Shown: one piece after another, positions 1,968-9,103 of the stretch
How positions within the stretch are numbered: position 1 is the stretch's first letter
Layout: the number at the start of each line of letters is the position of its first letter
Assembly: GCA_946410525.1 (NCBI GenBank)
Contig: CAMKAQ010000018.1
Coordinates: forward strand, 1 to 10,579
Direction of reading: 5' to 3'
Source: an uncultured Caryophanales bacterium
GTDB lineage: Bacteria; Bacillota_I; Bacilli_A; RFN20; CAG-826
DNA length: 10,579 bases
Notes under the pieces: generated by a model
Seen by the model: only the letters and a program-made list of their open reading frames with translations
What the model was told of the DNA's origin: nothing
Database searches by the model: none
Translations under genes and position numbers: made by a program

Positions 1968-2657
1968 TTAGAAACCTCCTTCAATGATGGAATCGATGCG
2001 ATTTTTCACATTTTCATCAGCAAATCCCGCTTCGATTGGTCTAAGGTAGCCTGAAGCGATGAGTCGTTTTGCCTCTTCTAAAGAGACGCCACGGCTTTGC
2101 AGATAATAGAGATGTTCCTCGTTAAGACGGCCAACGACTGCGGCGTGTGACGCGCTCACATCGTTGTCATCAATGACGAGGGCCGGGGAAGCAACGCCAT
2201 CGCTCTTTGGATCAAAGACGATGATCTTTGCAACCTGCTTGGTGTTAGTTTTAACAGCGCCTTTTTCGATGGTGCCAGTCCCTTTGAAAATGAGACGGCT
2301 CTCATCTCTTGCGATGCCATAGTTAGACATGCTTGCGGTCGTGTGAGGCGCACTATGGATGACAGAAGTGATGAACTCCTTCTTGGAATCCTTGGTGCCC
2401 ATTGACGAAAGATGCCAATTGCACTCAGCACCTTCTTCGAGAAGCTCAACCAAAACCTCAATCTTGCCCTGGAAGACACTGAAATCAGCCATGTAGGCTT
2501 CGAAGTCAGCGTCGCGATGGACTTTAACGACGATCTTGGAGCTTTCGAGTTTCTCAAAAGACGCGATGTTGAGGGTCAACTTCGTGTCTTCCGGAACATC
2601 AATGCTTAACGACGCAGGAAGGTTATCAATGTAGGAAAGGATTTTCTCACTTCTCAT
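1968..2657 (-). CDS. sufD: SufD, short form of the SufBCD scaffold partner
   Basis: SufD pairs with SufB and SufC to form the cytoplasmic cluster-assembly complex. The protein is about 229 aa from the ATG at 2657, much shorter than the roughly 420-440 aa of Bacillus SufD: it keeps the SufBD beta-helix core and C-terminal helical region but lacks most of the N-terminal part. The diagnostic C-terminal block is intact, with an (I)DDNDVSASHAA motif whose His171 matches the functionally important SufD histidine, followed by EEHLYYLQSRGVS and the final helices. Two starts are possible: the ATG at 2657, overlapping the sufC stop by 11 bases, and an in-frame TTG at 2690 adding 11 residues. Neither has a strong ribosome site; I chose ATG because such short overlaps fit coupled translation. 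No frameshift is visible, so the gene looks naturally compact, not broken. Confidence 0.88.
   Translation of the reverse strand: MRSEKILSYIDNLPASLSIDVPEDTKLTLNIASFEKLESSKIVVKVHRDADFEAYMADFSVFQGKIEVLVELLEEGAECNWHLSSMGTKDSKKEFITSVIHSAPHTTASMSNYGIARDESRLIFKGTGTIEKGAVKTNTKQVAKIIVFDPKSDGVASPALVIDDNDVSASHAAVVGRLNEEHLYYLQSRGVSLEEAKRLIASGYLRPIEAGFADENVKNRIDSIIEGGF
1975..1981 (-). promoter_or_regulatory. sufS ribosome-binding site (decides the start)
   Basis: Minus-strand AAGGAGG lies 8 bases before the ATG at 1966, which is ideal spacing. It overlaps the last codons of sufD, so ribosomes finishing sufD would stop on top of it. This supports 1966 rather than 1984 as the sufS start. Confidence 0.8.
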
Positions 2658-3477
2658 TTTTGACAGCTTCTCTAGTTGCGCATACGCCAATCGAGACCTG
2701 GTTCATCGCTGGATTGATCTCTTTGGCGACTTCGATGCCGAGCTCGGTTTTGATCCACTCATAACCTTCGGTATCGACACGTTTGATAATCTCTGGGCCA
2801 CCTGAGACGACGATGCGTCCGTTGATGATGATGGCGGCTCTGGTTGGTTTCACAAGATCAAGTAATCTTGCGTAGTGGGAAATGACAAGGATGCCTGCTC
2901 CCCTGGCGTGCTCTTCGTTAATGACATCAGAGACGACGTTGATCGCATCAACATCAAGACCGGAGTCGATTTCGTCGAGCATAGCGATCCTTGGTTTGAG
3001 GAGTCTCATCTGAAGGATCTCGTTGCGTTTTTTCTCACCACCGGAGAAACCTTCGTTGAGGTTACGGGAATTCATCTCAAATGGGATGCCGACCTCTTTG
3101 TAAGCTTTCTCAAGCTCACGGTAGAACTGGAAAAGGGCCATTGGTTTTTCACGATGTGAATTCATGGCGGCTTTATAGAAATCCGCGCTGTTTAAGCCAG
3201 GGATTTCGGCTGGATACTGCATGCCAAGGAATAAACCAAGCTGGCTGCGTTTATCTGGTGACATGGCCAAGACATCCTGGCCATCGAAAGTGATGGAACC
3301 TCCATCAACGGAATATTTTGGATCACCCATGATGGTGGCGATCAAAGTGCTCTTACCGTGTCCGTTTGGACCAAGAAGAGCAACGGTTTCGCCCTCATCC
3401 ATCTCAAAGTTAAGTCCTCTGAGAATCGATGTCCCTTTAACGGAGACATATAGGTCTTTGATAATTAGTTTTGCCAT
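2647..3477 (-). CDS. sufC: SufC, ABC-type ATPase of the Fe-S assembly complex
   Basis: SufC is a soluble ABC ATPase that drives conformational change of SufB and SufD during cluster assembly; it is not a transporter. All nucleotide-binding motifs are present in the 276 aa protein: Walker A GPNGHGKST at 36-44, Q-loop Gln87, signature FSGGEKKR at 144-151, Walker B AMLDEIDSGLD at 165-175 and the switch His201. The stretch LNEGFSGGEKKRNEILQM is characteristic of SufC rather than of import or export ATPases. Compared with the usual 250-260 aa it has a modest C-terminal tail (about residues 253-276) that encodes the overlap with sufD. The ATG at 3477 has an AGGAGGT site a few bases upstream. It is the first gene of the operon and follows a plausible promoter. 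Confidence 0.97.
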   Translation of the reverse strand: MAKLIIKDLYVSVKGTSILRGLNFEMDEGETVALLGPNGHGKSTLIATIMGDPKYSVDGGSITFDGQDVLAMSPDKRSQLGLFLGMQYPAEIPGLNSADFYKAAMNSHREKPMALFQFYRELEKAYKEVGIPFEMNSRNLNEGFSGGEKKRNEILQMRLLKPRIAMLDEIDSGLDVDAINVVSDVINEEHARGAGILVISHYARLLDLVKPTRAAIIINGRIVVSGGPEIIKRVDTEGYEWIKTELGIEVAKEINPAMNQVSIGVCATREAVKNEK

Positions 3478-3501
3478 AGCAACCTCCTAAAAGGCGTGAA
3501 T

Positions 3502-3530
3502 ATTCTAAAACCCTCAACTTAAACTCACAA
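3502..3530 (-). promoter_or_regulatory. Probable sigma-A-type promoter of the suf operon
   Basis: On the minus strand a TTGTGA box (3530-3525) is followed after exactly 17 bases by TAGAAT (3507-3502). These match four and five of six consensus positions. Transcription would start near 3495, giving a short leader that contains little besides the sufC AGGAGGT site, so no riboswitch or long leader is expected. I see no clear operator for an Fe-S-sensing regulator next to it. Confidence 0.55.
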
Positions 3531-3621
3531 TCAATGTAGTAAAAAATGTTACAAATAGCATCAAAAAACATAGTTTTTGGCATTTATGAAGCCCGCATCG
3601 TGAGTTTTGGAAATTTTGTTG

Positions 3622-3650
3622 TTGCACCAATTCTCTTAAGAGAATAGACT
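3622..3650 (+). promoter_or_regulatory. Possible promoter of the lipoprotein pair
   Basis: TTGCAC (3622-3627) and TAGACT (3645-3650) are separated by 17 bases on the plus strand. The -35 box matches the consensus fairly (TTG plus partial) and the -10 box matches four of six. Transcription would start around 3657 and leave a leader of about 35 bases. The whole spacer is occupied by a perfect palindrome, described separately. A start slightly downstream, using TATCTA at 3651, cannot be excluded. Confidence 0.4.
3630..3645. promoter_or_regulatory. 16-bp perfect palindrome, candidate operator
   Basis: The sequence ATTCTCTTAAGAGAAT is identical to its own reverse complement with no central gap. 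It fills the spacer between the proposed -35 and -10 boxes upstream of the two lipoprotein genes and 47 bases before the first ATG. This is a typical position for a repressor or MerR-like regulator that acts on spacer geometry. No regulator gene lies in the window, so the binding protein is unknown. It lacks a loop and is therefore unlikely to act as an RNA hairpin. Confidence 0.5.
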
Positions 3651-3670
3651 TATCTAGCATCGTTTGTGCA

Positions 3671-3676
3671 AGGAGG
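3671..3676 (+). promoter_or_regulatory. Ribosome-binding site with unusually long spacing
   Basis: AGGAGG is a consensus site, but 15 bases separate it from the ATG at 3692, more than the usual 5-9. No ATG, GTG or TTG in the same frame lies between. The ATG is nevertheless convincing, because it gives a perfect lipoprotein signal peptide (Met-Lys-Lys-Thr-Lys). The long spacer may lower or modulate initiation. Confidence 0.6.
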
Positions 3677-3691
3677 AACGAGTCCACACTT

Positions 3692-5953
3692 ATGAAGAAA
3701 ACGAAATGTGCTCTCGGCCTGGTTGCGTTTGCTACCTCTGTTATGGCCCTTTCGGGCTGCGGCAGAGCCACCGCTTCCAAAGACGGCGTCATTATGACCT
3801 ACACCGACGCCAACGGAAACCGCACCAGCTATACGGCCGAGGACTTGCTCAAGAACTATCAGTCTTACAGCAGTTCTTTGAGCAGCGAATTTGACAAGAT
3901 CTATGAAGTTCTTGTCCGTCATTATTATGACCAGGACGCTCAGTCCACTAAATTAGCTTCCCTCAAAGCGGAAGCCACCAATAAGGTTTTGTCCGACAAG
4001 CAGAAAGCAGAAACCAATGCTGCCAACAACAAGACCTCTTACGAAGCTGAATTCCAAACCTATTTGGATGCCGCTAACGTCGACAACGTTGACCAGCTTT
4101 ATGAAAAGTATCTCTACGACGAAGAAAAGGCTGACTTCCAGAACGAGATCTATAACACCTACGGAACCGGCGACAGCAGCGTCAACGGTTACGAGGCTAT
4201 GAAGAATGGCTATTACATGAATGGCACCACCCTCACCGAAGCCTTCCCAGAATCCAAAGATAGCAATGGATTCGTCTGGGGCCGCGGCTCTGAAGGCTGG
4301 CTTGGCACTCAAATGCCATACCACATCCGCCACATCCTTATCAAACTCAATGGCGGCGGTGATAAGAAATACACTCAGGATAGAATCGCTGAAACCGCTA
4401 ACGAAGGCGGCGAGACGACCAAGCTCACCTCGACCCTCTTCCGTTTAGCCGGTGCCACCATCGGCGCCGATGGCAAATTAACCACCGATACCGATCGTTG
4501 GACCTTCGGTTCCATCGCCAAGAGCTTCTCCGACGATGAAGGAAGCGCCAAGAACTTTGGTGAATACGGCATCATGGAAAAGACCATGGCTCAGGACCTT
4601 GTCCACGAATTCAAACTTGGCACCTATGCCTTTGAATCCCTTTATAGCGCGAGAGAGAAAGCTTCTCCAGAGGCCTACAAGCTTATGCCAGGCCTTGAGG
4701 AAGACGCTGCCAGTGCCGCTGATGTCGACACCAAGCAGACCCTTCTCGACAGCAACACCACAGTCTATGACTACTTTGCAAACTTCGATGATGATAACGA
4801 TGGCCATGCCGACGGTGTAGGTCAAATTCCGTTCGGCGCCGCTATTGCCTTATATGATACTAAGAAGGTCGTCACTGATGCCGCGGGCAACCCTGTCTGG
4901 AACGACAATCAGGATTCTTTCTATCCAAGAAACGTCATCTATAACAAGTACTTCAACAAACACAACGTCTGTGTCATCACTCCAAACGTCATCGGCAGCA
5001 ACTACAAGTCCGCTCTCCTTGACGACGCGAGCAAAGCTTCCGCCAGAACCATCCTTGGTGGTTATACCTTAAGCGCCGATGGCAAGAGCGTCACTGCTGA
5101 AGACTTCAAGGGATCCTATAGCGCCCAGCTCGGTGCTCTCCCAGGATTCAGCGTCGACACCAAGAACGTCCTTTCCGGTGCCGATTTCGAACACAACGTT
5201 CTCACCAACGAAAAAGGTCAGGTTGTCTTAGCCGTCAGAGCCGGTGCCGGTTCTAGCTACCAGGGCATCCACTTCATGACCGTTGAGAGAAGCGCCCTTA
5301 ACAAATACGGTCTCAAACTCGATGGTGCCAAATACGTCGAAGCTACCGCTGCCGACCTTGGAACCGTTACCGATCTTGGAACCGTCGGTGGAAAGAAAGC
5401 CGAGAAGATCGCCTACACTGGCGCAGCCACTTCCCTTTCCGACTACTACACCCCATATGCTCCAAACGAAGTCGACTATCCAAAGTATGGCGAGAACAAA
5501 GCCGTCAATACCTACGTCAACTTCAATAAGACCGAGACCAGCGAGTGGTCCGATCGTGTTAAGACCATCACCAGTGCCATCACTGGTTTCAACAGCAACC
5601 TTAACACCTACTACTTCCAGAGACTTTGCGAGAGCGGTGCCATCACCTTCGCCGACAAAGACCTTGAAGATTCCATCAAGAACTTCTCCGTTACCAAACG
5701 TCAGAGCTCTGTCGATGACAACTTCGAGACCTGGAAGAAGAACTGGCTTGAGTACGCTGAAATGCTCGAAGCCCAGCAAGCCCAGCGTTTCGAGAACTTC
5801 GGAACCATCAAGGGCGAGCTCATCACTGAGTTAGCCGCTATCTCTTATAGCCAGGCCAACCAGGATGTCCAGACCCTCGACGTCACCGTCGCCGGCACCA
5901 ACAACTTAGCCGGACTTTGGAAGGAAGGAGGAGCCTGCTACTATGGCAAATAA
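3692..5953 (+). CDS. Large PrsA-like lipoprotein with interrupted parvulin (PPIase) domain
   Basis: Predicted 753 aa lipoprotein on the outer face of the membrane, probably helping exported proteins fold. The N-terminus is a classic lipoprotein signal: KKTK, a hydrophobic core (7-20) and the lipobox LSGC with Cys23 as the lipidated residue. Residues about 33-160 are mostly helical, like the N-domain of SurA/PrsA proteins. Parvulin signatures follow: HIRHILIK at 211-218, FGSIAKSFSDDEGSAKNFGEYG at about 272-293, VHEFKLGTYAF at 304-314, and much later AVRAGAGSSYQGIHFMTVER at 514-533, which resembles the last parvulin strand. The domain is thus split by insertions of about 50 and 200 residues. 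The second carries DDDNDGHAD at 366-374, resembling an EF-hand calcium loop. Residues 600-753 form a helical C-terminal region. PPIase activity is not assured; a chaperone-only role is possible. The gene overlaps the next by 11 bases. Confidence 0.75.
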   Translation: MKKTKCALGLVAFATSVMALSGCGRATASKDGVIMTYTDANGNRTSYTAEDLLKNYQSYSSSLSSEFDKIYEVLVRHYYDQDAQSTKLASLKAEATNKVLSDKQKAETNAANNKTSYEAEFQTYLDAANVDNVDQLYEKYLYDEEKADFQNEIYNTYGTGDSSVNGYEAMKNGYYMNGTTLTEAFPESKDSNGFVWGRGSEGWLGTQMPYHIRHILIKLNGGGDKKYTQDRIAETANEGGETTKLTSTLFRLAGATIGADGKLTTDTDRWTFGSIAKSFSDDEGSAKNFGEYGIMEKTMAQDLVHEFKLGTYAFESLYSAREKASPEAYKLMPGLEEDAASAADVDTKQTLLDSNTTVYDYFANFDDDNDGHADGVGQIPFGAAIALYDTKKVVTDAAGNPVWNDNQDSFYPRNVIYNKYFNKHNVCVITPNVIGSNYKSALLDDASKASARTILGGYTLSADGKSVTAEDFKGSYSAQLGALPGFSVDTKNVLSGADFEHNVLTNEKGQVVLAVRAGAGSSYQGIHFMTVERSALNKYGLKLDGAKYVEATAADLGTVTDLGTVGGKKAEKIAYTGAATSLSDYYTPYAPNEVDYPKYGENKAVNTYVNFNKTETSEWSDRVKTITSAITGFNSNLNTYYFQRLCESGAITFADKDLEDSIKNFSVTKRQSSVDDNFETWKKNWLEYAEMLEAQQAQRFENFGTIKGELITELAAISYSQANQDVQTLDVTVAGTNNLAGLWKEGGACYYGK

Positions 5954-7625
5954 TTTCAAAAAGGTTTTAACCTTAACCGCCGCTGCTTTAGCGTTCGGAC
6001 TCACCAGCTGCGACCAAGTCGAAGCTAAGCTCCCAGAAGACAAAAACGTCCTCACCTTTGCTGATGGCGAGGAAGTCTACAACAACCAGCTTTCCAAAAT
6101 CTACGATGCCCTTGTGAGCAGTGGCGACACCAACTCCCAGCGCATCCTCAACAACATCCTTTACCTCTATAGTGAAGCCACCTTTGGTTCCTTCTATGAT
6201 GTGATGGATGGCACTACCGTCAAAGAATACGGCATCAAGAGTGCCGTCGAAGGCGGTGAGGCTGGTGCAGCCTTCTCCTCCTACATCGAAGCCCACAAGG
6301 CCATGCAGGTCATCGAGAATGGCTCCATCAACAAATCCAAATCCTTCACCAAGGTCAAGAACATGTACGCCGAGATCATCGGCCGTATCTACAAGCTCTT
6401 CTACAGCTACGTCCTCGATGCCTCTTATCAGGATAGATCCCGCTTCTGCGAAGAGAAGTTCTACCAGGCTCAGGTCAAGAACTACTATGATCTTGGCGCT
6501 GCCTACTACACCACCGATGAGGCTAACTACTATGTCCCAGTGAACGGTGCTTTCCGTCTTGATGACACTTACACCGCTGACGATCAGCTCAAAGATTACT
6601 TCAAAGATCTCTTCGCCACCTATAAGAACTACATCGAGCTCAACATCCTTCCAGACATCTATAGAAGCGAGTTAACCGCTCAGTACCTCTACACCCAGAA
6701 CATCTACCAGATCCGTAACACCATGGCTCGTAAGATCGACTATGTCGCTCTCAGCGAGAACAGTGACTATAACGGTAAAGTCAAAGACTTGATGAACGCT
6801 TACTGCAAGCTCATCGTCAACGCTGGCAAGCAAGACACCTATGACTTCACCTGGTTAGACAGAGTCAACAAAGGCGCTGAAGCCACCATCATCGCTGATG
6901 CCCAGGCCCAGGCCCTCTATGCTGAAGCTGGCTGGACCCTCAGACACATCACCGTCGGTGGTCAGAACTATGACTACTACTGTGAGTCCGTCTTCGGAAC
7001 CACCTGCCTTAAGTACCAGAAGCTTCTTGATAAGACCACCCGTGACGAGACTGAGCTCTCCAACATCGAAGCTGACTTCACCTCCAACGGCGCCTACACC
7101 AAGGAAACCGGCTTCAAGATCAAACTCAACCAGCTCCTTGCTGACAACAACACCGAGTATGATTGGTACACTTCCGGATCCCTCAATGGCATCCCAGCTG
7201 ACATGGCCACCCGTGCCTTCAAGATTCAGGTTGCCAACGAGCTCGATGACGATGACGCCACCGAGAGATACCTCCGTAAGATCGCCGATGACGGTGCCAC
7301 CACCAAGAACGCTTACTTGATGCCAGCCAACTATGAGACCGGCACCGAATACCCATACTTGGTCCAGGATTCCAGCAAGTACTACATCGTCAAAGTCGAA
7401 GAGGCCACCAAGGCCGCTAAGCTCAATGAGAGCTATATCAACGACTACTATGGCGACGAGAAGGCTGAGATCATCGCCCGTAAGATTGCTTACAGCTTAA
7501 GCAGCTCTGACACCTGGAAGAAAGCCGCCAACACCTACTACGTTGAGCAAATGGCTTCCATCTTCCACGATGATTACGTCCTCGAGTACTTCGAGCACAC
7601 CTTCCCAGAGATCTTCGAGAACTAA
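5943..7625 (+). CDS. Second PrsA/SurA-like lipoprotein, diverged parvulin region
   Basis: Predicted 560 aa exported lipoprotein: positively charged start (NNFKK), hydrophobic stretch 8-20 and lipobox LTSC with Cys23 as the anchor. The mature start (VLTFADGEEVYNNQLSKIYDAL, about 36-57) looks like the opening of a SurA/PrsA N-domain and resembles the KIYEVL region of the gene before it. A weak parvulin outline remains: LRHITVGG at 333-340 resembles the first strand, GSLNGIPADMATRAFKI at 412-428 may be the glycine-rich loop and following helix, and YLVQDSSKYYIVKVEE at 472-487 resembles the last strand. Active-site residues are not clearly kept, so this may be a folding chaperone without isomerase activity. 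The ATG sits inside the end of the preceding gene, nine bases after GGAGGAG, so the two products are probably made together. All seven prolines use CCA, and C-ending codons dominate, suggesting high expression. Confidence 0.68.
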   Translation: MANNFKKVLTLTAAALAFGLTSCDQVEAKLPEDKNVLTFADGEEVYNNQLSKIYDALVSSGDTNSQRILNNILYLYSEATFGSFYDVMDGTTVKEYGIKSAVEGGEAGAAFSSYIEAHKAMQVIENGSINKSKSFTKVKNMYAEIIGRIYKLFYSYVLDASYQDRSRFCEEKFYQAQVKNYYDLGAAYYTTDEANYYVPVNGAFRLDDTYTADDQLKDYFKDLFATYKNYIELNILPDIYRSELTAQYLYTQNIYQIRNTMARKIDYVALSENSDYNGKVKDLMNAYCKLIVNAGKQDTYDFTWLDRVNKGAEATIIADAQAQALYAEAGWTLRHITVGGQNYDYYCESVFGTTCLKYQKLLDKTTRDETELSNIEADFTSNGAYTKETGFKIKLNQLLADNNTEYDWYTSGSLNGIPADMATRAFKIQVANELDDDDATERYLRKIADDGATTKNAYLMPANYETGTEYPYLVQDSSKYYIVKVEEATKAAKLNESYINDYYGDEKAEIIARKIAYSLSSSDTWKKAANTYYVEQMASIFHDDYVLEYFEHTFPEIFEN

Positions 7626-7642
7626 ATCTCGATTCTCAAAAC

Positions 7643-7676
7643 AAAAAATTGAGGCGGTTAATTCCGCCTCTTTTTT
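7643..7676 (+). terminator. Intrinsic terminator of the lipoprotein operon
   Basis: A GC-rich stem GAGGCGG (7651-7657) pairs perfectly with CCGCCTC (7664-7670) across the six-base loop TTAATT and is followed by six T residues. Six A residues (7643-7648) precede the stem, so it could also terminate in the opposite direction, although no minus-strand gene reads into it. It lies 25 bases after the second lipoprotein's stop and separates that operon from hit. Confidence 0.92.
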
Positions 7677-7698
7677 ATACCTATTATTAATAAGGATA

Positions 7699-7704
7699 TA
7701 TAAT
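7699..7704 (+). promoter_or_regulatory. Consensus -10 box upstream of hit
   Basis: A perfect TATAAT lies 26 bases before the hit ATG in AT-rich DNA just after the terminator. No good -35 hexamer stands 16-18 bases upstream, and the extended -10 TG is absent, so it may be a moderate promoter. Transcription would begin near 7711, leaving about 19 bases that include the GAGGT ribosome site at 7719-7723. Confidence 0.5.
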
Positions 7705-7729
7705 TACTTAGAACATTCGAGGTTACATT

Positions 7730-8152
7730 ATGAAAGACGTATTTTGCCGTATCATCGATGGGGAGATCCCATCAACCAAGGTCTATGAGGATGATGACGT
7801 TCTCGCCATCCTTGATATCTCTCAGACCACGAAAGGGCACACTCTCGTCATTCCTAAGAAGCATTATGATAACTTTTTAGCTTGCCCACTTGAGACCATG
7901 GAAAAGGTCATGGCCGTCGCTCAAAGAATCGGACAGGCTGAGATGGGTGTATTAGGCGCCAAAGGCGTTAACATCCTTACCAACGTGGGTGAAGTCGCTG
8001 GACAAAGCGTCAACCACTTCCACGTCCACGTTATTCCTCGCTACATCGGTGGCGAAGGCGGATTCCAAATCACCATGAAAGGACAAGACACATCCGGAAT
8101 GGATCTGCCTCGTCTTGCCATGCAGATTTCTGACAAACTTAAGAACGAATAA
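7730..8152 (+). CDS. hit: HIT-family nucleotide hydrolase/transferase (Hit)
   Basis: A small cytoplasmic protein of the histidine-triad superfamily (Hint/HinT branch), whose members hydrolyse purine nucleoside phosphoramidates and acyl-AMPs. The 140 aa length is typical. The signature HFHVHVIPR carries His96, His98 and His100, with His98 expected to be the nucleophile. The N-terminal FCRIIDGEIPSTKVYED, DISQTTKGHTLVIPKKH (29-45) and GQSVNHFH blocks are very close to Bacillus Hit. Only one cysteine (Cys6) of the N-terminal zinc-type pair found in some members remains. It has its own -10 element and a GAGGT site close to ATG. Its stop codon directly abuts the stop of the oppositely oriented yhaM. 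In Bacilli hit lies near prsA and yhaM, as here; the cellular substrate is not known. Confidence 0.95.
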   Translation: MKDVFCRIIDGEIPSTKVYEDDDVLAILDISQTTKGHTLVIPKKHYDNFLACPLETMEKVMAVAQRIGQAEMGVLGAKGVNILTNVGEVAGQSVNHFHVHVIPRYIGGEGGFQITMKGQDTSGMDLPRLAMQISDKLKNE

Positions 8153-8167
8153 TTATTCGCGGTTCTT
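8141..8167. terminator. Inverted repeat over the hit/yhaM stop codons, possible two-way terminator
   Basis: A perfect 14-bp palindrome CGAATAATTATTCG (8146-8159) covers both stop codons. Outer arms AAGAAC (8141-8146) and GTTCTT (8162-8167) are also complementary, so a longer hairpin with a three-base bulge can form in transcripts from either strand. A clear T-run is missing, so classical intrinsic termination is uncertain. It may instead stabilise 3' ends or limit read-through between the convergent genes. Confidence 0.4.
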
Positions 8168-9103
8168 CTTCTCGTAAGAAGGAACGTAATAGGCTCTCCC
8201 ATCGAGAGCGAAGATCTTTTCGGTGAATGACCCTAGGTCGGCGTTTTCGACTGCCTTGTCGACGATGTTCATCTTCGCATCGAAGTCATCGATCATGGCA
8301 AGGGCTAAAGCCTCTCTGGTAAGAGGAGGGACTGGTGAGCCGAATTCTGGCTTAGAGTGATGGGAGGCGATCATATGCTCGAGGAGGGTGAGCTTCTCGC
8401 CTTCGATCTTGAGTTCTTTGCAGGCCATTCTGATTTCAGCGACCATGATGGAGATATGGCCAACCAAGTTTCCTTCGATGGTGTACTTGGTGGCGATTGG
8501 ACCAGATAATTCGATGGTCTTTCCAAGGTCATGGATGAGAGCGCCGGCAATGACCCAATCGCGGTTGAGTTTGGTGTAGAGCTTACAGACCTGCTCCGCT
8601 AAATCGGCCATGCAAAGGGAATGATAAAGAAGTCCGCTGGCGAAGTTATGGTGATTCCTCACCGCGGCTGGATGGATGACGTATTTGTCGTGGAACTTGT
8701 TAACGAGATAAGTGACGATCTTCTTAAGGTCTTCGTCCTTAAGGGATTCGATGTAGGAATCGAGTTTCTTCTCAAGTTCTTCCCTTGGGACAGGAGCCTG
8801 AGGGACGAATTTGGTGACATCGACATCAGAGACGGAGACTTGGGCACCAGAAATGATTTTGAACTGAAGGGTTCCTTTGTATTTGAGGACCTCTCCTTCA
8901 ACGGCGACGATGTTGCCTTCTTTGAAGACCTCTAAATCACCATCGAAAACATCCCACTTCTTTCCAAGGATGGATCCGGTTGAGTCCTGAAGGGTGACGT
9001 TAAGATAGCTTCTCCCTTGGGTGGTGACGCATTTGTCGACCTGAGTGACAAGCAATTGGTTGAAGACGTGCTGACCGTCTTCGAAGTCTTTGATCATTTC
9101 CAT
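8153..9103 (-). CDS. yhaM: YhaM, 3'-5' exoribonuclease (OB-fold plus HD domain)
   Basis: YhaM is a metal-dependent 3'-5' exonuclease of Bacilli that trims mRNA 3' ends by a few bases; a related protein (Cbf1) was described as a DNA-binding factor. At 316 aa it matches Bacillus YhaM (about 314). Residues about 10-95 form an OB-fold (VTTQGRSYLNVTLQDSTGSI, then VEGEVLKYKGTLQFKI). The HD phosphohydrolase domain follows, with metal ligands His161 (LLYHSLCMADLA), His191-Asp192 (LIHDLGKT), His216 (NLVGHIS), His248-His249 (IASHHSKPEFGSP) and Asp272/Asp273 (AMIDDFDAKM). The ATG at 9103 immediately follows the recX stop with no gap and has an AGGAGGT site about nine bases upstream, inside recX. It is the last gene of the glycosyltransferase-recX-yhaM run. 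Confidence 0.96.
   Translation of the reverse strand: MEMIKDFEDGQHVFNQLLVTQVDKCVTTQGRSYLNVTLQDSTGSILGKKWDVFDGDLEVFKEGNIVAVEGEVLKYKGTLQFKIISGAQVSVSDVDVTKFVPQAPVPREELEKKLDSYIESLKDEDLKKIVTYLVNKFHDKYVIHPAAVRNHHNFASGLLYHSLCMADLAEQVCKLYTKLNRDWVIAGALIHDLGKTIELSGPIATKYTIEGNLVGHISIMVAEIRMACKELKIEGEKLTLLEHMIASHHSKPEFGSPVPPLTREALALAMIDDFDAKMNIVDKAVENADLGSFTEKIFALDGRAYYVPSYEKKNRE

Follow-up and report, generated by a model that had tools for sequence, protein, structure and literature searches.

We analysed a stretch of 10,579 nucleotides (the window) from a rumen-type Bacilli metagenome-assembled genome (MAG; about 1.0 Mb, 85% complete), focusing on two tandem genes, gene A and gene B, whose products are large lipobox proteins related to PrsA. 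Both open reading frames (ORFs) start with ATG, lie on the forward strand and share 11 bases (5943-5953); a HIT-family gene follows on the same strand, and the three are flanked by the suf operon on one side and by yhaM, recX and a glycosyltransferase gene on the other, all on the reverse strand. A preliminary description of the window, made from the letters alone, had reported a lipobox with Cys23 in both proteins, an overlap of the two genes, a terminator closing the unit and an unusually large size, and all of these were found. The lipoboxes read LSGC in A and LTSC in B, and Cys23, whose lipidation is predicted, is invariant in the 73 aligned A rows and in the 82 aligned B rows. The lengths of 753 and 560 amino acids (aa) compare with 283 to 336 positions in the PrsA-type NCBIfam models. 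The overlap follows from the ORF coordinates, and a stem at 7651-7670 (7 pairs, 6 of them GC, then a T tail) forms the terminator-like hairpin. A terminator scan of 3400-8200 gave four such sites against 4.2 expected in shuffled sequences, two of the four being this hairpin on both strands; we therefore call it from its position directly after gene B and not from its score.

Structure prediction of A and B had been set beforehand as a test, and it gave a PrsA/SurA-type fold for both. In each model a parvulin domain interrupts the helical chaperone part and large insertions are present, in line with the SurA/PrsA-like helical N-domain of the preliminary description; structural matches point to one parvulin-like stretch per model, and the other parts were barely covered. 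In gene A, the PrsA chain 6vj4 aligned to the model between residues 64 and 662. In the scan of the protein, Pfam matches were weak and fell short of their thresholds (Rotamase_3, 19.9 of 22.5 bits; Rotamase, 18.8 of 21.7), while in the genome scans Rotamase_3 lay just at its cut-off (22.5) and Rotamase below it (20.2 of 21.7). Gene A was the only place in the 85%-complete genome matched by two Pfam parvulin models; across 147 genomes of the order, PF00639 scored above cut-off in 60, and all 60 places were the A gene, as judged by eye. The NCBIfam scan listed no PrsA model for either window protein. The putative active-site residues of A were kept in most rows, i.e. His214 in 70/73, Asp282 in 73/73 and His527 in 67/73; they were equated by motif and alignment with PrsA H146, D194 and H239, as numbered in the accessible part of PMC2678132.

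The insertion in the parvulin domain makes up 24% of the whole of A and holds 25 of the 69 invariant columns of A. It includes a strong motif, PRNxxxNKYFN (residues 412-422), and a cysteine, Cys427, conserved in 70/73 rows. Another cysteine, Cys749, is invariant in 73 rows and belongs to the C-terminal GGACYY of A, whose codons (5927-5944) coincide with the ribosome-binding-like site and the start of gene B. Cys427 and Cys749 could form a pair.

The parvulin trace had been described as much fainter in B than in A, which agrees with the predicted model of B. SurA, PpiD and Par14 chains aligned to that model between residues 256 and 489, and its best 22 structural matches were all parvulin/SurA-like chains. 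Sequence searches with the window B protein gave nothing of weight in Pfam, NCBIfam or the PDB, and no parvulin match. None of the 82 rows has a His in columns 262-271 or 476-487, and five have one at column 261, one position ahead of the strand. Judged from this alignment, the active site of B is degenerate throughout the rows examined. Since the accessible part of PMC2678132 reports the His pair as dispensable in hPin1, we take its loss in B as a sign of divergence and not as proof of inactivity.

Table 1. Coordinates and strands of the genes, predicted protein parts and flanking features in the window.
Feature	Position	Strand	Basis or remark
Gene A, PrsA-type lipoprotein, 753 aa, expanded parvulin domain	3692..5953	+	
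Gene A signal peptide and lipobox, predicted lipid Cys23	3692..3760	+	LSGC; Cys23 invariant in 73 rows
Gene A N-terminal helical part of chaperone (NC) domain, residues 24-204	3761..4303	+	model; PrsA chain 6vj4
Gene A parvulin domain, first part, residues 205-329, with His214 and Asp282	4304..4678	+	
Gene A ~180-residue insertion within parvulin domain, residues 330-508	4679..5215	+	richest stretch in invariant residues
Gene A last parvulin strands, residues 509-538, with His527	5216..5305	+	
Gene A C-terminal part, residues 539-753, long helix 656-700	5306..5950	+	model
Gene B, PrsA-type lipoprotein, 560 aa, parvulin-like domain without active-site His	5943..7625	+	
Gene B signal peptide and lipobox, predicted lipid Cys23	5943..6011	+	LTSC; Cys23 invariant in 82 rows
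Gene B parvulin-like domain, residues 261-489	6723..7409	+	structural alignments
Gene B C-terminal helices with B-family end motif	7410..7622	+	H542 in 77/82 rows, D543 in 82/82
Ribosome-binding-like AAGGAGGAG for gene B, within 3' end of gene A, ahead of B's ATG	5925..5933	+	sequence
Terminator-like hairpin and T tail after the A/B pair	7651..7676	+	
SufC, divergent neighbour	2647..3477	-	divergent in 69/74 testable related loci
HIT-family gene, next downstream	7730..8152	+	next gene in 69/71 testable related loci (script's rule)
YhaM 3'-5' exoribonuclease homologue, convergent	8153..9103	-	

We then compared the pair with its smaller relatives. Other families of the same taxonomic order have a shorter A (523-682 aa across ten fetched single pairs) and a B of 402-635 aa, some smaller and some larger than that of the window. 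Further away within the class, two families carry the pair at the size usual for PrsA, with A of 322-382 aa and B of 283-311 aa (ORFs called from the first ATG, omitting the cut or misplaced L172_A and L177_B). In one normal-size pair, L154, the A protein is a parvulin of about 326 aa (Rotamase_3, 2.6e-20; PrsA 4wo7, 3.6e-10), its neighbour B is a PrsA-like lipoprotein of about 284 aa (PrsA 6vj4, 1.8e-6), and the two match each other directly by BLASTP at 3e-6. The normal-size relatives do match NCBIfam PrsA models, but also under cut-off. A lipobox was present in 27/29 of their B proteins and in 7/29 of their A proteins, and the A proteins without one had a transmembrane-like start in those looked at.

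Profile comparisons linked the small, mid-size and window-family proteins in a chain at 99.8-100%, for A and for B separately. The small A and small B profiles matched each other at 99.8% over almost their entire length, and each like-with-like match was stronger than the A/B cross match. Trees of the N-terminal part separated 35 A and 36 B proteins with zero errors (split support 0.965-0.985, with and without signal peptides) against at least 23 errors after label shuffling, and in these unrooted trees two single PrsA proteins joined between the A and B groups. The profile chains and the error-free split indicate that A and B represent old lineages of PrsA, two in number, which one duplication produced and which were enlarged later, and the window pair is almost certainly a PrsA-derived tandem pair. 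The duplication proposed in the preliminary description is borne out by these results together with the L154 match, and the expansion, also proposed there, can be dated after the duplication. The proposal that one member keeps isomerase residues holds for the window pair. In the normal-size pairs the first and the second His are each present in 17/29 A and 0/29 B proteins, and the Asp in 27/29 A and 5/29 B; the residues are kept in the window and in nearly all aligned A relatives, but 12/29 normal-size A proteins have no first His, and some A proteins are without the His pair too.

The growth lies in different places in the two proteins. In A it is mostly the insertion in the parvulin domain, to which a lengthened C-terminal part adds, and His214 and His527 are 313 residues apart against 88 and 108 for the corresponding residues of the two normal-size outgroup A proteins measured. 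In B, comparison of strand positions places the added length in the N-terminal part and within the parvulin-like domain. The lengths of A and B covary (Spearman 0.52, n = 72, kinship uncorrected).

Gene order was examined at the best 80 named-record loci for A, and there the fixed order suggested for a check in related genomes was found, with B next after A in 77/77 testable loci. The genes overlap in 68 of these 77, most commonly by 11 bases (34 loci) or 14 bases (21 loci), when the start of B is set at the lipobox-compatible ATG nearest the stop of A. YhaM is next and convergent in 61/68 testable loci, and of the two exceptions to the HIT position, L082 has the HIT gene behind a broken-up B. 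The named records with the nearest gene A are MAGs from rumen and gut that carry the labels Bacilli, Erysipelotrichaceae or Bacillales bacterium, and Candidatus Alloenteromonas is also in the set. One locus (L099) comes from a MAG titled Staphylococcus epidermidis, with a gene A about 29% identical, and is probably a mislabelled bin. In L156 the HIT gene and yhaM are separated by two additional lipoprotein-like ORFs of 413 and 425 aa (11253-13783). An 805-aa A homologue on a 2.9-kb contig (P0024) is annotated with PF00501, which we take to be AMP-binding, and is probably an assembly chimera.

The two genes also occur together. In the order sample of 147 genomes, profile A matched in 137 and profile B in 131. 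For 10 of the 16 genomes without a B match the A locus was fetched, and an ORF stood in the B position after A in all 10 (8 of these ORFs are in the tree, 2 are not); of the remaining 6, 4 fit assembly gaps and 2 were not assigned. Both genes are absent from four genomes of the same family (G076, G095, G106 and G120), which is best explained by assembly gaps because the first three have no SufC match at E 1e-30 and SufC of G120 lies at a contig edge. In G056, B stands at the contig start, A was unmatched, and SufC lies downstream on the same strand. Among the genomes examined with an intact locus, none clearly had one gene without its partner; G001, G015 and G063 were not counted either way. 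Neither outcome that the preliminary description had named as refuting, models lacking the fold or wide occurrence of each gene alone, was seen. In a class sample of 198 genomes, 24 of them in the order, the other 174 gave two weak A matches and no B match, because the normal-size proteins are too distant for profiles A and B. A normal-size B profile matched in 127/296 genomes, many of these being weak N-terminal matches to other PrsA-like proteins, and A was directly upstream of the normal-size B in 30/30 best loci.

Two genomes of one family carry the arrangement A-B-A-B (L142:4158-10419 and L143:2517-9394). Their second A proteins are sisters and so are their second B proteins, the pattern that duplication of the whole pair ahead of the split between the two genomes would give; the other branching differs between the halves, with low support. 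The first of the two A proteins of L142 has a Listeria-Bacteroides repeat at its end (PF09479, 1.5e-11). A third genome, L151, has an A that falls with the first A and a B that lies near the second B, both at low support, as loss of the two central genes would produce.

Tree distances of A and B over 59 loci were correlated at 0.958, and the partial correlation controlling for HIT, YhaM, SufC and SufS was 0.886. The other 14 gene pairs at the locus reached at most 0.346, although a permutation result of 0/500 was attained by two of them too. Linkage by itself does not explain the A-B correlation, because HIT and SufC adjoin the pair as well; a common extracytoplasmic life style might be a partial cause.

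The preliminary interpretation is thereby largely borne out, and we consider it probable, at roughly 0.6, that A and B work as a heteromer, as it had suggested. The evidence for the heteromer is indirect, namely the fixed order and close coupling of the genes, the inheritance of second pairs as pairs and the strongly correlated evolution. In our reading A and B arose by tandem duplication of PrsA at the suf / hit / yhaM locus and were then enlarged, both being lipoproteins on the outer face of the membrane, and an obligate A:B heteromer formed through the N/C chaperone domains would replace the PrsA homodimer. Newly exported proteins would be held in the cleft; A would contribute its parvulin isomerase and the conserved module added within that domain, and B would be a catalytically degenerate scaffold. 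Physical contact between A and B, isomerase activity of A and client binding are what we infer from this arrangement. More tentatively, the pair may represent an obligate PrsA foldase of catalytic and pseudo-enzyme partners in several Bacilli families, in which the added module of A, and not the isomerase site, would be the main conserved working surface and the partners would have enlarged jointly into an extracellular folding chamber.

It is possible, though we doubt it, that A and B are subfunctionalised paralogues, each a homodimer with its own clients, sharing an operon only for joint expression. Available portions of PMC12445088 and PMC12524980 describe homodimerisation of PrsA through the N/C domain and report Listeria PrsA1 and PrsA2 as non-redundant, and one family here has two A-B pairs. 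The A-B distance correlation, far above that of the other linked neighbours, argues against this reading, as do the second pairs inherited as pairs in two genomes and the gene overlap in most loci. That client folding has been lost, with the PrsA fold of the enlarged ectodomains now put to use in surface receptors, adhesins or assembly factors, seems unlikely to us: the largest share of invariant residues of A in its insertion and not in the parvulin core would suit this, as would a B without recognisable catalytic residues, but A retains its His214, Asp282 and His527, the two parvulin models match nowhere else in the genome, and the locus and gene order are those of a normal-size PrsA-type pair. 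A B unrelated to PrsA and convergent in layout, which would suit the missing sequence matches of window B, is highly improbable, being contradicted by the chain of profiles that reaches the ~284-aa PrsA-like lipoprotein over almost the full length and by the uniformly parvulin/SurA-like top structural matches. The option that the preliminary description had left standing, of distant relatives convergent in layout, is contradicted by the profile chains and the tree.

Tandem ORFs of 811-1084 aa in other families were first taken as A/B from a match to the small-B profile (e.g. 5e-11 in G267) and then rejected: they were unmatched by profiles A1 to A5 with the HMMER composition correction on (three other large ORFs were matched), and their mutual hhalign match (100%, E 2e-88) was far above those to A or B and also better than those to small PrsA-like proteins. 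By these comparisons, they are apparently a separate tandem enlargement of PrsA-like proteins. Such pairs were seen in L190, L191, L192, L193, L194, L196 and L200, in two other families, with yhaM in the fetched stretch in 4/7.

Among known systems, SurA is similar in having an N/C chaperone domain and parvulin, an inactive one included according to the accessible part of the literature. It has an active parvulin as well, both in one chain, whereas the parvulins of A and B are on two separate proteins. In the PpiD-YfgM heterodimer of the Sec translocon, YfgM is a TPR protein and not a parvulin paralogue, while B is paralogous to PrsA; both proteins of the window carry a lipobox, and the normal-size outgroup A of L153 and L154 starts with a transmembrane-like segment. 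PrsA itself, described in the available portions of PMC12445088 and PMC12524980 as a bowl-shaped dimer formed via N/C domains, shares with A and B the lipobox, the parvulin inside an N/C helical chaperone domain and the profile ancestry. A and B differ from it in being about twice its size, outside the 285-340 aa range, in being encoded by two tandem genes, in the missing parvulin His pair of B and in the large conserved insertion inside the parvulin domain of A. Paralogues of the PrsA1/PrsA2 type (Listeria, Streptococcus, Bacillus anthracis) likewise mean more than one PrsA per genome, as far as PMC12445088 was accessible; A and B are adjacent, overlapping and strongly co-evolving, with a degenerate active site in B. 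Among the literature matches listed, no title or abstract opening described a tandem or inactive PrsA partner.

The role of the isomerase part of PrsA, a known homodimer, as against its chaperone part is an old question. A duplicated PrsA split into isomerase-bearing and isomerase-degenerate partners, and retained so across several Bacilli families, would make this question directly testable. It would also point to what two large protein families are likely to do; as far as the listed rows name their members, they call them only 'hypothetical protein'.

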